This document shows positions 24,008 through 29,723 of a stretch of DNA of 37,416 nt, piece after piece (position 1 is the first letter of the stretch; each line of letters starts with the position of its first letter). The stretch comes from Streptomyces aureus (GTDB lineage: Bacteria; Actinomycetota; Actinomycetes; Streptomycetales; Streptomycetaceae): the NCBI RefSeq assembly GCF_001418135.1, contig NZ_LIPQ01000138.1, positions 1 through 37,416 of the forward strand, written 5' to 3'. The notes beneath the pieces were generated by a model. The model was not told the origin of the DNA, did not search any database, and worked only from the letters and a program-made list of their open reading frames with translations. A program made the position numbers and the translations under genes.

Positions 24008-24097
24008 CTGTCGTTCCGCCCCGGTGCGGGCACGACGAAGCGGCGTATCGGGAGTCGCTCGGAGAGCACGGAATCGCCTCGGGCAGGATGAGTGACC

Positions 24098-26170
24098 ATG
24101 ACAGGTGGGCGAGAGAAGCTCGTGGAGCGGCTGCGGCAGGCCGGACTGGACGTCGTGGAGGGAGATCGGGTCGAGGAGGTCATGAGGCCCTGGGCCGCGT
24201 GGCGACCGGTCATCTCGGGCAACGCCACACCGACGGTGGCCGTACGGCTGGACGCTCCGGAGCTGGTCGCCGAGCTCAACAGGCAGTGGTACCGGCTGGC
24301 GGTCGAGCTCGGGATCATCGGCGCGGACGGCACCTTCCTCATCGACGTCGCCGGCACCTGGTCGGACCGCACGCCCCGGCGCTGGACACGGGTGCGGCTC
24401 ACCGAACGGTGGGACCTCGCCGGTGTCCTCGGTGAGCGGCCCGGCCGGCCCGAGTTCGTCACGCTCTCCGCGGACGGCGACGCCCTGATCGGGGCGACCA
24501 CCGAGGAGTACGACGTCTGGCTCGTCGCGCTGGACCGCTTCAAGGAGCGGCAGGAAGCGGAGGCGCGCGCCGCGGCCGACGAGACCGCCGAGCAACGGGC
24601 AGCCGCGTGGCAGTGGTTGTTCCGCGGGCCAGGACCTTCGGTGGGCGTGCGTGACGAGTGGGCGCACGGGCTGGCGCACAACCCCGCCATCTCCGAGGAC
24701 CTTCGCGCGGGTCTCCTGGGCCTGACCCACCACCTTCTGTGGCGTGCTCTCCCGGCGTCGGTCGTCGAGGCCGCGATGGTCCACCCGGAGTGGCAGGTGC
24801 GCGCGTTGCTCGCCGAGGTCCAGCCGAACATCACCGCTGAGCAGTGGACCCGCCTGATCCTGGGCGAGCCGGATGCCCGGAGGCGGTGGGTCCTCACGCT
24901 GCTCGCGGCAGACCGGCGCGTCGAGCTCACCGGCACCGCGTACGCCCGACTCACCGCGGATCCGTCCGCGAGGACGCGACATGAGGCAGCGCGGCTGACC
25001 GGCCTGCCCGCCCGCCTCCTCGCGGTGCTGGCCCGCGACGTCGATCCCTCCGTACGCGCCTCGGCGTGCCGTGGGACGGCCTGGTCGCAGCTGGACAGCT
25101 CTCTCCGGCTCGCGCTGCTCGACGACCCCGACGGCAAGGTCCGCGTCGCGGCACGCCTCCGGCACCACCAGGAGCACCCCCTGTCCCGGTCCGTCTACGA
25201 CTCCGAGGGCCTCGGGACGAGCGACGCCGTGAGGACCTGCCGGCTCGCGCGCGACCTCGCCGGACATCTGGCCCATCACGGCGACCTCAGCCGGCGCCGT
25301 GACCTCGCGGGCAACCCGTGGCTGGAGAGTGACCTGGTCGCCGTTCTCGCCCGGGACCCCGACGAGAGCGTCCGGTTCTCGGTCTCCACGCGCCCCGATC
25401 TCACCGAGGAGCAGCGGGCGGGCATCGCCGTCGACTTCGATCCGAGTACGCGCTCCAACTCCCTCGACTGGGTCGTGGCGCTGCACGAGGACCCCGACGC
25501 CATGCGGCGCCTGGGGGCCTCCTCGCACCCCCTCGTACGCAGAAGCGTCGCGCGGGCCAGGCGCCTGCCGCCGGACGTCGTCGAGTCGCTCGCGCGCGAC
25601 GAGGACCGCGTCGTGCAGCTCTTCCTCGCCGAGTCGTGCGACGACGCGCCCGCCGAGATGCTGCTGCGGGTGTGGCAGTGGTGGAACGGGAGTCTCAGCA
25701 CACCCGACCGTCCCCACGGCCATCCGAACTTCCCCCGCCGCGACCTGGTCCGTCACGCCGACGACCCGAACCCGCGGATGCGCCAACTCGCCCTGGACGA
25801 CCAGGAGTCGACAGTCGAGCTCGTCGAGCGCTTCAGCCGGGACAGCAACGAGGAGGTCCGGCTGCGGGCCGCGACCGACGCCCGGCTGACGCCCGCGTCG
25901 GCGGTGCGGCTGCTCGACGACCCGTACGAGCAGATACGGCGCGCGGCCGCCAGGCACCCGCGACTCCCGGCGCGGACCCTGGTGCCGTTGCTGCGCAACG
26001 AGGACACCGCGTACGCGGCTGCCCAGAACCCGGGACTGCCCGAGCCGGTCATCGCACGGATGATCCAGCTGATGCGGCGGCTTCGGGCCGAGGCCGGAGC
26101 CGGGGCCGGGGACGCCGTCGGGCCCGCTGCCGAGGCCTCGGCCGGGGCGCGGATCGAGTCTCGTCCATGA
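24098..26170 (+). CDS. LRV/HEAT-like helical repeat protein
   Basis: The 690-residue cytosolic protein starts at ATG 24098, nine bases behind AGGA; GTG 24092 is an alternative. The N-terminal 170 residues (LRQAGLDVVEGDRVEEVMRPWA, TVAVRLDAPELVAELNRQWY) are not recognised. From about 190 on there are many short helical repeats of the type HNPAISEDLRAGL, RDVDPSVRASACRG, RDPDESVRFSVSTRPDLTEEQ, DDPNPRMRQLALDDQ, DSNEEVRLRAATDARLTPASAVRLL, which fit leucine-rich-repeat-variant/HEAT-like solenoids. Such proteins bind partners rather than catalyse. No signal peptide or membrane helix is seen. It ends in an Ala/Gly-rich tail. Confidence 0.8.
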   Translation: MTGGREKLVERLRQAGLDVVEGDRVEEVMRPWAAWRPVISGNATPTVAVRLDAPELVAELNRQWYRLAVELGIIGADGTFLIDVAGTWSDRTPRRWTRVRLTERWDLAGVLGERPGRPEFVTLSADGDALIGATTEEYDVWLVALDRFKERQEAEARAAADETAEQRAAAWQWLFRGPGPSVGVRDEWAHGLAHNPAISEDLRAGLLGLTHHLLWRALPASVVEAAMVHPEWQVRALLAEVQPNITAEQWTRLILGEPDARRRWVLTLLAADRRVELTGTAYARLTADPSARTRHEAARLTGLPARLLAVLARDVDPSVRASACRGTAWSQLDSSLRLALLDDPDGKVRVAARLRHHQEHPLSRSVYDSEGLGTSDAVRTCRLARDLAGHLAHHGDLSRRRDLAGNPWLESDLVAVLARDPDESVRFSVSTRPDLTEEQRAGIAVDFDPSTRSNSLDWVVALHEDPDAMRRLGASSHPLVRRSVARARRLPPDVVESLARDEDRVVQLFLAESCDDAPAEMLLRVWQWWNGSLSTPDRPHGHPNFPRRDLVRHADDPNPRMRQLALDDQESTVELVERFSRDSNEEVRLRAATDARLTPASAVRLLDDPYEQIRRAAARHPRLPARTLVPLLRNEDTAYAAAQNPGLPEPVIARMIQLMRRLRAEAGAGAGDAVGPAAEASAGARIESRP

Positions 26171-26299
26171 TCCGCACGCTCCATCGGGGTGATCACTCGT
26201 TCGTGAGTTTCCCCTCGTCCGCGCCCGCCATCCCGCGACGCTGTCATTCGCGGCGCGCGACCGCGTCGCCGTATCGGTGCGGTGTGGAGGGAAGTCGGC

Positions 26300-26578
26300 A
26301 TGACGCGGGAAACGAGGCGCCGCGAGAGTCCCGGTGAGCAGGCGGTCCTCCTGGTCGCCGGGCTGGCCGATGTGGCCGTGGGCACGCTGGGGTCCGCACT
26401 CGGAGTCTTACGGGGGCTGGCCCGACGCTCGGACGCGGCGGAGCTGGTCTCGGAGGCCGAGCGGGATCTGACCGCGCGTGGGCGCCTCGTCCTGGACCGC
26501 TACGCGGCCGCGCCCCCGGCGCATCTGGAGATTCTTGCCCGGCACGCCCTGGCCGAGCGGGCGGGCGAGAGTGGCTGA
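26300..26578 (+). CDS. Small helical protein of the prenyl operon
   Basis: The 92-residue product starts at ATG 26300, nine bases behind GGAGGG; the longer GTG start at 26282 is less likely. It is helical and amphipathic: EQAVLLVAGLADVAVGTLGSALGVLRGLARR could be a membrane-active or hairpin segment, followed by a charged helix and a C-terminal LEILARHALAERAGESG. I do not recognise the family. Its stop overlaps the polyprenyl synthase start by eight bases, so the two are translationally coupled and probably work together. Confidence 0.75.
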   Translation: MTRETRRRESPGEQAVLLVAGLADVAVGTLGSALGVLRGLARRSDAAELVSEAERDLTARGRLVLDRYAAAPPAHLEILARHALAERAGESG

Positions 26579-27623
26579 GGGGTGGGAGTCGGCCGCGTTC
26601 AAGGCGCGTGTCGACGAGGTCCTGCACCGTTTCGTCGCCGAGGAGGCCGACCTGCTGGCCGCGGTCGACCCGACGCTCGGTCCGGTGGCCGAGCAGTTGG
26701 AGGCGTCGGTCGCGGTCGGGAAGAGGCTGCGGGCGGCGTTCTGCTACTGGGGCTGGCGGGCGGCCCGGCAGCCCGACAGCGACGCGTTGGTGCGGGCGGC
26801 GGCCTCCATGGAGCTGGTGCACGCGGCCGCCGTCGTGCACGACGACCTCATCGACGACAGTCCACTGCGGCACGGGCGGCCCACCGCCCACGTGGCCCTC
26901 CGGGACGCCGTACGGCACCACCCGCGGGCCGCGGACGCCGCCCGGTCCCTCGCGATGCTCGTCGGGGATCTGCTCATGTCGCTCGCCGGGCAGCTGTTCG
27001 CCACCAGCGGTCTGCCCGCCGCCTACCTCGGCCGGGCCCGTCCGCTGTGGGCGGCGCTCGCCCGCGATCTCGTCGCCGGTGAGTGTCTTGAGATCCTCCA
27101 CACCGGTGTCACCCCGGACACGACGGCATCGCTGAAGGTGATCCGCTACAAGACCGCCAAGTACACCGTGGAGCAGCCTCTGTTGATCGGCGGTGCACTC
27201 GCCGGGGCCGGCGACCGGCTGCGCGAGGGGTACAGCGCCTACGGGCTGCCGCTGGGCGAGGCGTTCCAGCTCAGGGACGATCTGCTCGGCCTGTTCGGCG
27301 AGACGCGGCACACCGGCAAGGCCAACACCGATGACGTACGCGGTCATCGGCCCACCGCGCTCCTCGCGGAGACGTGGCGCATCGCCGGCGCCGACGCGCG
27401 TGAGCGGCTGCGCGCCCTGCTGGGGCGGCACGACCTCGACGACGAGGGTCTGGAGGCCGTACGCGACGTGATGCGGCGGCTCAAGGCGCCCGACCGGGTC
27501 GAGAGCATGATCGCCGCCAGGGTCGAGGAGGCGCTCGGCGCACTCCATGAGCTGGACGTACCCGCGCCTGCGGCCCATGCCCTGACCGGCTTGGCTCATT
27601 CGGCCGCGGTCCGCCTGTCCTGA
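26571..27623 (+). CDS. Polyprenyl diphosphate synthase family protein
   Basis: The 350-residue protein starts at GTG 26571 within the end of the small gene. The first aspartate-rich motif is intact: HDDLIDD with Asp91, Asp92 and Asp95. The second reads RDDLLG (Asp236, Asp237, Gly240) rather than DDXXD, a common variant in actinobacterial enzymes. GKRLRAAFCYWGW (about 57) and KTAKYTVEQPL are the expected substrate-binding segments. It joins isopentenyl diphosphate to allylic diphosphates; chain length cannot be read reliably, but Met81 and Leu83 ahead of the first motif are small to medium. It is followed by an oxygenase gene, not a terpene cyclase. Confidence 0.93.
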   Translation: MAEGWESAAFKARVDEVLHRFVAEEADLLAAVDPTLGPVAEQLEASVAVGKRLRAAFCYWGWRAARQPDSDALVRAAASMELVHAAAVVHDDLIDDSPLRHGRPTAHVALRDAVRHHPRAADAARSLAMLVGDLLMSLAGQLFATSGLPAAYLGRARPLWAALARDLVAGECLEILHTGVTPDTTASLKVIRYKTAKYTVEQPLLIGGALAGAGDRLREGYSAYGLPLGEAFQLRDDLLGLFGETRHTGKANTDDVRGHRPTALLAETWRIAGADARERLRALLGRHDLDDEGLEAVRDVMRRLKAPDRVESMIAARVEEALGALHELDVPAPAAHALTGLAHSAAVRLS

Positions 27624-27699
27624 CCCGGGTCGGGGAAGCCGGACCTGCCACCGCCTCTCCTCTCCTCCCCTCCCTCACGCAGATACGAAGGAACCCCCC

Positions 27700-28863
27700 G
27701 TGCTCCACACCGAGACATCGATGAACGCCCTCCGGCAGAGCGGCGACGAGCTCGCCGACGCCACCGTCGCCGCTCTCTTCGAGCGCGGCGAGATGGGCAC
27801 CTTCAACACCTTGATGCGGTTCTTCTCCACGGCCGGCGCGCCCGTTCCGGACGGGCTGCCCGATGTCGCCAGGGAGTACCTGGAGGCCACGAGCGCCCCG
27901 CCGGCCTGGGTGGACTGGGACGAGATGGAGCGTGCCCGGCTGTTCTTCATCGACAACAACGTGCACATCGCCACCGCCCTGTCCTTCGCCTCCATGCCCG
28001 CCTGCTATCTCGTCCCCCACGTGGCGAAGCTGCTGTCGACGACCCACGGTCTGAACTACCCCTCGACGCGGATGGCGGCGACCGGCCAGTTCACCGTCCA
28101 TCTGATGCGGCCCGATGCCTTCGAGGCAGGCAGCCGTTTCATCCCCGCCGCGCAGAAGGTCCGTCTGCTCCACGCCTCCATCCGCCACCACCTCACGCGC
28201 GAGGACCGCTGGGACTCCGGGGCACTGGGGGTGCCGATCTGCCAGGAGGACATGATCGGCGGGCAGATGTTCTTCTCGCTGCTCGTCCTCGACAGCCTGC
28301 ACCGCCTCGGCATCCACATGTCACAGGAGGGAGCGGAGGCGTACTTCTACGCCTGGCGTGTGGTCGGCGCGATGCTCGGCGTGGACCAGGAGGCCGTACC
28401 CAAGTCCCTCGACGAGGCGCGCCGGTTCCTCGACCAGTACATGATCCGGTACATGGGGCCGTCCCCCGAGGGCGCGCACCTGACCCGGCAGCTCATCGAG
28501 CTCTACGAGGACATCGTGCCCGGGACGCTGCTCGACCCGGTCGTGGCCGCTCTCGTCCGGTACCTCATCGGCGACACGAGCGCCGACTGGCTCGAGGTTC
28601 CCAGCACGCCCTGGGACACGGTGGTCAAGGCCGTGCCCCACCTCCTGGGCGTACTGGAGACCATCGAGGACCGCTCACCGCTCGGCGCCTGGGCCCTCGA
28701 CCGGCTCGGGCACCTCACGACGGTCTTCGAGCTGTCCTCGCTCACCCGGGGGCGCGTCATGCATTACGCCGTCCCCGAACATCTCAGGAAGGAGTACGGC
28801 GTCCCCGACGCACCGTCCCGTACCCGTCGCTGGACTCCACCGGCGGCCACGCTCTCTCCGTGA
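27700..28863 (+). CDS. MpaB/Lcp-type (DUF2236) haem oxygenase
   Basis: The 387-residue protein starts at GTG 27700, behind GAAGGA. It belongs to the DUF2236 family that contains rubber oxygenase Lcp and the fungal prenyl-cleaving MpaB. The family core is visible: KVRLLHASIRHHL with His158, the probable axial haem ligand, and the flanking Arg; then GVPICQEDMIGGQMFFSLLVLDSLHRLGI and the YFYAWRVVGAMLGV segment. No signal peptide is seen, so unlike secreted Lcp it should act inside the cell. Together with the prenyl synthase 76 bases upstream it may oxidise or cleave an isoprenoid chain. Confidence 0.88.
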   Translation: MLHTETSMNALRQSGDELADATVAALFERGEMGTFNTLMRFFSTAGAPVPDGLPDVAREYLEATSAPPAWVDWDEMERARLFFIDNNVHIATALSFASMPACYLVPHVAKLLSTTHGLNYPSTRMAATGQFTVHLMRPDAFEAGSRFIPAAQKVRLLHASIRHHLTREDRWDSGALGVPICQEDMIGGQMFFSLLVLDSLHRLGIHMSQEGAEAYFYAWRVVGAMLGVDQEAVPKSLDEARRFLDQYMIRYMGPSPEGAHLTRQLIELYEDIVPGTLLDPVVAALVRYLIGDTSADWLEVPSTPWDTVVKAVPHLLGVLETIEDRSPLGAWALDRLGHLTTVFELSSLTRGRVMHYAVPEHLRKEYGVPDAPSRTRRWTPPAATLSP

Positions 28864-28898
28864 GGCGGGCCCACCGCGGTCGCTGCCCTGACCGCCCG

Positions 28899-29723
28899 TC
28901 AGTCGTTCCCCTCGTGGTGCGGCAGCACCCCTTCCGCTCCCGGGACGGGAACGAAGCCGCCGTCGGCCCGAATCTTCGCGACGAGCCGTCCGAGTTCGGT
29001 CAGGGTGTCCTCGCCGAGCAGCGAAGGGTTCGCTTCGAGCAGCAACGCGACGTGTTCCCCGATGCGCTGAGGCGTGAGGTCGTCCGTCGTCCCCAGCTCC
29101 ACCGGACCGTCCTCCCCCTCGTCCACGACCCGGGCGTTGCGCAGCAGCCGGAGCTGCCCATCGCTGTACACCCTGGCCACCACAGCCGCAGCGAACCGCT
29201 TCCGCGCCTCCGCGCCGCTCATGGTCGTCCGCTGATCGCCGGAAGTGGTGACGACCTCCTGCGGTTCCTCCGTGCCCTCAGCCCGGCGGTCACTCGTGCG
29301 ACTTCGTGCCACGCTGCTCCACTTCGCTTTCACGGACGGGAGCGCCTGGTCGTTCCACTTGGCCTTCACTGCCGGAAGCGCGTGTTCGTTCCACCACTTC
29401 CTGACGTGCGGCGCGGCCTTCTCCGCCAGTCTGAGGCTGATCTGGACGAGCACCTCGGCGAGGAACTCCGCGTTCTCTCGACGTTCCTGTGCTCGGGCCT
29501 CCGACTCGTGCCGGTCGTGGTCGAGCCCGTCCTGTGGGTACGCCGTCACCGGATCGGGCTCGTCGTCCTCCTTCAAGAAGATCTCGGCCTGACCCACCTG
29601 GTTGGTGTCGGGGTCACGTGTCATGCCGCGATGAGCGCCCGCGGTCTTCCTCGACCGCGCGAAACGCGCGCCCTTCCGGACTCTGACGATGGCCTCGTAC
29701 TCGTCGTACTCGCTGCTGTCCAT
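28899..29723 (-). CDS. Hypothetical protein with internal 12-residue repeat
   Basis: The 274-residue protein starts at ATG 29723 behind GGTGGGG. It is very hydrophilic. The first 80 residues are acidic (KEDDEPDPVTAYPQDG), residues about 85-145 are helical and contain two copies of a 12-residue unit (NEHALPAVKAKW and NDQALPSVKAKW, DNA repeat 29319-29390), and the C-terminal 100 residues (GAEARKRFAAAVVARVYSDGQ, LTPQRIGEHVALLLEANPSLLGEDTLTELGRLV) look folded. I do not recognise a function. It is convergent with the oxygenase gene and divergent from the isomerase-like gene. Confidence 0.75.
   Translation of the reverse strand: MDSSEYDEYEAIVRVRKGARFARSRKTAGAHRGMTRDPDTNQVGQAEIFLKEDDEPDPVTAYPQDGLDHDRHESEARAQERRENAEFLAEVLVQISLRLAEKAAPHVRKWWNEHALPAVKAKWNDQALPSVKAKWSSVARSRTSDRRAEGTEEPQEVVTTSGDQRTTMSGAEARKRFAAAVVARVYSDGQLRLLRNARVVDEGEDGPVELGTTDDLTPQRIGEHVALLLEANPSLLGEDTLTELGRLVAKIRADGGFVPVPGAEGVLPHHEGND
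29319..29390 (-). repeat. Two-copy 36-bp tandem repeat inside the hypothetical gene
   Basis: 29319-29354 and 29355-29390 are related 36-base units, encoding the 12-residue repeat with ALPxVKAKW. Confidence 0.8.

Follow-up and report, generated by a model that had tools for sequence, protein, structure and literature searches.

We describe three adjacent genes on a 37,416-nucleotide (nt) stretch of Streptomyces aureus DNA (contig NZ_LIPQ01000138.1, positions 1 to 37,416; hereafter the window) that encode a small helical protein, a prenyl synthase and a haem-type oxygenase of the DUF2236 family. This trio is real, self-contained and widespread in Streptomyces, occurring in about a third of the species sampled. 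We propose, with a probability of roughly 45%, that it forms a stand-alone pathway which makes a long all-trans prenyl chain and then cuts it oxidatively. The synthase would make a polyprenyl diphosphate that is linear, all-trans and more than C20 in length, assisted by the small helical protein, probably as its partner or membrane anchor. The oxygenase, an intracellular enzyme predicted to hold b-haem, would take up the polyprenyl diphosphate (or the alcohol) in a hydrophobic channel that runs by the haem, and would cleave a C=C bond with O2, yielding a shorter prenyl aldehyde or ketone. An initial annotation of this DNA had already suggested that the unit makes and then oxidises a polyprenyl chain; that idea stands as the best inference, with cleavage and an aldehyde product as its predicted steps. 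The elements discussed below are as follows.

26300..26578, + strand: gene of the small helical protein (92 amino acids (aa), ATG start), first of the three genes
26571..27623, + strand: trans-polyprenyl diphosphate synthase gene (350 aa, GTG start; PF00348)
27700..28863, + strand: DUF2236 haem-type oxygenase gene (387 aa, GTG start; PF09995)
26193..26209, + strand: inverted repeat TCACTCGTTCGTGAGTT (TCAC-N6-GTGA), which may serve the trio as an operator or activator site

Conservation of the three-gene unit and its upstream repeat

A scan of species genomes gave 206 loci, of which the best 80, all with Streptomyces in their titles, were retained. All three genes are present in 79 of these 80 loci. 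The exception is locus L041, where the first two genes are absent within the 13 kb fetched; a transposase-like open reading frame (ORF; L041 4482-5678, IS110-like by eye) lies just upstream of its partnerless oxygenase gene. In 77 of 80 trios the small-protein gene runs 8 or 11 nt into the synthase gene; the window's trio is one of these, with the 8 bases first annotated. The distance from synthase to oxygenase is 76 nt in the window and only 13 nt in four loci. The single operon proposed at the outset is supported, and the result that would have spoken against the proposal, a trio whose members are not conserved together, was not what we found. Within the window, a GGAGG-like site can be seen by eye ahead of the small-protein gene, and simple scans of positions 25900-29100 returned no terminator-like or sigma-70-like site.

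The association also holds at the level of whole genomes. Among 150 Streptomyces genomes, 49 carry the oxygenase (at least 63% identity) and all 49 also carry the synthase, which adjoins the oxygenase in 48 and is split from it over two contig ends in genome G350. At E<=1e-60, no synthase of at least 51% identity was found in these 150 genomes outside the 49 with an oxygenase. A profile of the small protein matches 85 of 245 genomes of the order, in three of eight genera (the matches in G550 and G562 being weak and partial), and eight further loci chosen by this profile all proved to be full trios, with four belonging to a different family of that order. When 246 genomes were drawn from across the phylum, 16 gave a match of any kind; an orthologue of at least 82% was present in four, all in the window's genus and with the window among them. 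Orthologues at 72-83% are also found in five plasmid records, and the trio is present in the three inspected (one being L020).

All three genes are under purifying selection. The ratio of nonsynonymous to synonymous substitution rates (dN/dS, 12 pairs) is 0.15-0.42 for the small-protein gene, 0.17-0.32 for the synthase and 0.14-0.26 for the oxygenase. Because these values are below 1, the small ORF is a real gene. Broken copies do occur: the synthase gene is disrupted in L065 and L152, and the oxygenase gene of G318 has an internal TGA. We found no description of the trio in the literature, in a search limited to open-licence PMC text.

The genes that flank the trio vary, with no further family in more than 8 of the 80 loci, and no cyclase, carotenoid gene, phosphatase or acceptor gene recurs beside it. 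The absence of a cyclase from the unit, noted initially, is thus general across these loci. The apocarotenoid-like pathway suggested at the same time was rejected: no carotenoid gene recurs as a neighbour, the oxygenase belongs to PF09995, and a separate carotenoid-type cluster elsewhere in the genome has its own synthase. Upstream of the trio, the window encodes a 692-aa protein (24092-26170) with weak, below-cut-off matches to leucine-rich-variant and HEAT repeats, which is found in 3 of the 80 loci.

Three results go beyond the initial annotation, namely conservation at the level of the order, the place of the oxygenase described below and the inverted repeat at 26193-26209. Of the 80 regions upstream of a trio, 61 contain the motif TCAC-N6-GTGA (shuffle mean 0.1; thinning leaves 59 of 78), as against none of 423 control regions taken from in front of flanking genes. 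It begins 85-127 nt ahead of the first trio gene, and several more trio loci have near variants of it. The window's copy is the only mismatch-free match to the consensus in the 7.9-Mb genome; three further sites with 2 mismatches were taken as chance. From this conservation, we suggest that a regulator encoded away from the trio probably acts in trans at the motif. Among 23 trios outside the 80-locus set, a profile recognised the repeat in one (L170), and the repeat is absent from L066, L067, L073 and L076. This scarcity outside the main set, together with its absence from most of the divergent trios, argues against a general role.

We also considered the 16-bp Group I target of BldM, TCACcCgnncGgGTGA (consensus as given in PMC4125116), and rejected it, with TCACYCGNNCGRGTGA present in 0 of 80 upstream regions. 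A half-site plus core of the BldM site is present in 64 of 80 trio upstream regions versus 12 of 423 controls, and one half of the repeat resembles a BldM half-site in sequence.

A synthase with a predicted long-chain product and its putative small partner

The synthase matches PF00348 (E=1.1e-37) and carries both Asp-rich motifs (DDLID and QLRDDLLG), in close agreement with the aligned PDB chains 8f8f and 3lk5. It scores 177 bits against the Family 2 encapsulin cargo polyprenyl transferase model (NF041169), for which the curated cut-off is 450, and this assignment was discarded. A FastTree tree gathers the trio synthases into a single group (0.96) that neighbours synthases from cyclase clusters, with the nearest relatives sampled at 39-47% identity to the trio synthase. 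We opened 7 of the 23 non-trio synthase places to inspect their neighbourhoods. All seven adjoin a terpene synthase or class-II-type cyclase gene, and all carry Phe both 5 and 8 residues ahead of the first Asp-rich motif (positions -5 and -8). These bacterial diterpene-cluster synthases, which we infer to be of geranylgeranyl diphosphate (GGPP) type, thus differ from the trio synthases, which have Ala and Val/Ile at the two positions, a small partner and no cyclase. Ala occupies both -4 and -5 in 79 of the 80 copies of the trio synthase, and the remaining copy, L065, is broken; Ala at -5 with Val or Ile at -8 holds in 77 of 77 found by pattern, and two more with Ala at -5 were read separately.

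Side-chain size at -4 and -5 is generally held to set prenyl chain length, and exchange of Met for Ala at the -5 position of CrtE is reported to give a C25 product (PMC7261888). Based on this rule and on Ala in place of the Phe of the relatives, the trio synthase is predicted to make a product longer than C20. Three loci have a second prenyl synthase gene, with His at -5, directly upstream of the small-protein gene (L066 3358-4434, L073 3447-4520, L157 2307-3467), which suggests a feeder of shorter primer; L067 and L076 also have two synthase matches each.

The neighbourhoods leave room for another reading, in which the role of the synthase is to provide distant enzymes with an ordinary diphosphate (GGPP or a quinone side chain), while the oxygenase works on a completed prenyl lipid, for example menaquinone. 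The cyclase genes beside all seven related synthases and the lack of a recurrent phosphatase or acceptor gene beside the trio agree with it. Nevertheless, we hold this reading to be improbable: the genome has seven PF00348 genes (and five PF09995 genes) counting the trio members, so that six other synthases are at hand, one of them in the carotenoid-type cluster; unlike core quinone genes, the trio has a scattered distribution (49 of 150 genomes) and occurs on plasmids as well; and Ala at -5 departs from the related synthases.

The small protein belongs to no Pfam or NCBIfam family above cut-off. Its model has three helices (predicted local distance difference test, pLDDT, 71) with no Foldseek match at E under 9, and a PDB profile search with its profile A2 returned only two unrelated weak matches at E up to 10. 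The first helix is hydrophobic and contains a nearly invariant Asp24, and the Kyte-Doolittle 19-residue maximum of the protein reaches at least 1.6 in 77 of 80 loci. A crude gene caller found the gene in 47 of the 80 loci; the profile missed it only in L041, and has no match next to the seven other synthases inspected. The plasmid annotation names the small protein 'polyprenyl synthetase' and gives no basis. Across 78 loci (L057 and L065 left out), small-protein distances track those of the synthase (r=0.71) more than those of the oxygenase (r=0.52), a correlation that fits a synthase subunit or anchor and proves neither.

In having the gene of a small helical protein next to that of the catalytic subunit, the trio recalls the heteromeric prenyl synthases HexA/HexB and HepS/HepT, of which HexA may control chain length (PMC7839719). 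No sequence relation to these known small subunits emerged: the profile of the small protein picked up none of their PDB chains, and the HexB entry 3aqb did not appear.

An oxygenase on the rubber-oxygenase branch

The oxygenase matches PF09995 (DUF2236/MPAB_Lcp_cat, E=5e-18) and aligns with the rubber oxygenase Lcp of Streptomyces K30 (5o1l, E=2.2e-32), from its own residue 16 and from residue 56 of the Lcp chain. Judged by eye, by this start of similarity and by the gap of only 13 nt after the synthase gene in four loci, it has no visible signal peptide and appears to be intracellular, in line with the first description.

Residues R164, T168 and H198 of Lcp correspond to R124, T128 and H158 of the oxygenase and are invariant in 81 of 81 sequences. 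A protein without haem would have counted against the initial proposal; these three residues, which hold or surround the haem, are instead kept. Two other Lcp positions, Glu148 of the channel and the distal ligand Lys167, are not. The E148 position is V108 in 81 of 81 oxygenases, and the K167 position is Glu in 74 and Ala in seven, the window among the latter. In a divergent clade of trios, the E148 position is Val, Leu or Met and the K167 position is Asn; counting Ile, the E148 position is Val, Ile, Leu or Met across trios. Glu148 and Lys167 occur together in nine Lcp rows and in 0 of 49 other rows compared. One of the nine, L133, is without the R164 and T168 equivalents.

For Lcp K30, the T168A variant is reported to keep 2% activity and R164A none, with about 20% for each of E148A and K167A, 5% for E148Q and 2% for E148H (PMC5522427). 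According to the same source, Lys167 is kept in only 59% of Lcps, and the E148 and K167 positions matter in Lcp K30 yet are not essential. Because the Arg, Thr and His are kept while E148 and K167 are not, and given these mutant activities, haem binding by the trio oxygenase is likely, and C=C cleavage is possible but not implied. The idea that Glu replaces Lys167 of Lcp as a base is weakened by Ala in the window and six others of the 81 sequences, and by Asn in the divergent clade.

These replacements bear on how the chain would be oxidised. The oxygenase may modify the chain without cutting it, by allylic hydroxylation, epoxidation or peroxidation, leaving an oxidised long-chain prenol. The loss of both the E148 and K167 equivalents, together with the low activity that E148Q and E148H keep in Lcp K30, agrees with this reading. 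We nonetheless think non-cutting oxidation unlikely, if less so than the supply of an ordinary diphosphate, since C=C cleavage is what has been reported or proposed for the characterised relatives Lcp, Nro1 and MpaB, MpaB being reported to cut a prenyl side chain (PMC12724181). A purely non-catalytic part, as a haem sensor or as a protective protein for the synthase or its product, seems highly improbable: the Arg and Thr needed for catalysis in Lcp are invariant in all 81 sequences and under purifying selection.

To place the oxygenase, we used a careful tree of 48 rows, after removal of 14 of 62 rows; the stronger PF09995 paralogues of the genome were left out and no MpaB or Nro1 sequence was among the rows. 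Trio oxygenases form one clade (100/99) and Lcp another (100/99), with the trio outside it. These two clades and a small third group (L131, L132) are joined at 97/94, and a branch of 100/100 separates the trio from fourteen other DUF2236 rows, including one in a terpene cluster. By this tree, and for the DUF2236 rows sampled, the trio oxygenases make up a clade of their own on the Lcp branch. The initial label, an Lcp/MpaB-type oxygenase, therefore stands as to family (PF09995) and is refined to the Lcp branch, in a tree without MpaB. The trio oxygenase resembles Lcp in its domain, its Arg, Thr and His residues and its branch, and differs in its own clade, the lack of a visible signal peptide and of E148 and K167, and the adjacent prenyl synthase; with MpaB and Nro1 it has the same Pfam domain in common.

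DUF2236 genes elsewhere offer two single cases which point to an isoprenoid role outside the trio. In G050 (L137 4695-13620), a DUF2236 gene shares a terpene cluster with a terpene synthase (PF19086) and with genes identified by eye as those of a prenyl synthase, an FAD-type enzyme and, apparently, IspH, DXS and IspG. On an S. globisporus plasmid (L132 1683-7122), a third-group DUF2236 gene lies 3.5 kb from a prenyl synthase gene, with two genes between, and the same stretch has an FAD oxidoreductase gene. Most other DUF2236 neighbourhoods fetched have no synthase match. In G113 (L134 7597-8361), a distant relative of the oxygenase overlaps the gene of a Pyr4-like transmembrane protein (PF25129, E=1.7e-9); in G025, the gene that follows an oxygenase relative is equal in length to this Pyr4-like gene and encodes a visibly different protein.

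Significance of a proposed make-and-cut prenyl pathway

Several points weigh against a pathway that makes a long chain and cuts it. No phosphatase recurs beside the trio at the 80 loci, and one-helix rules for chain length are approximate. With the E148 and K167 positions replaced, the chemistry of Lcp need not carry over to the trio oxygenase. The AlphaFold model of the oxygenase (pLDDT 44.3, from 34 rows of at least 81% identity to the window) is too poor for inspecting a channel. Finally, the tree program warns of long branches, including the join of the trio with L131 and L132, and the order of the three groups is not fixed.

Making and cutting a long prenyl chain could have wider implications, which we put forward tentatively and as clearly more doubtful than the pathway itself. 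The trio may represent an apo-polyprenoid class, in which a long chain is made only to be cut, with no cyclase or carotenoid step. The shared ancestor of the trio and rubber oxygenases may then have acted on the cell's own chains, the secreted enzymes arising by gain of a signal peptide and of Glu148, and the small protein may be a new kind of synthase subunit.

With only three genes, the pathway would be simple to reconstitute in E. coli. If the proposal is true, rubber oxygenases would gain a counterpart inside the cell whose candidate substrate is genetically linked to it, so that the origin of rubber degradation becomes testable, and the trio would mark an isoprenoid product that is widespread yet unassigned, in a genus much studied for its antibiotics.
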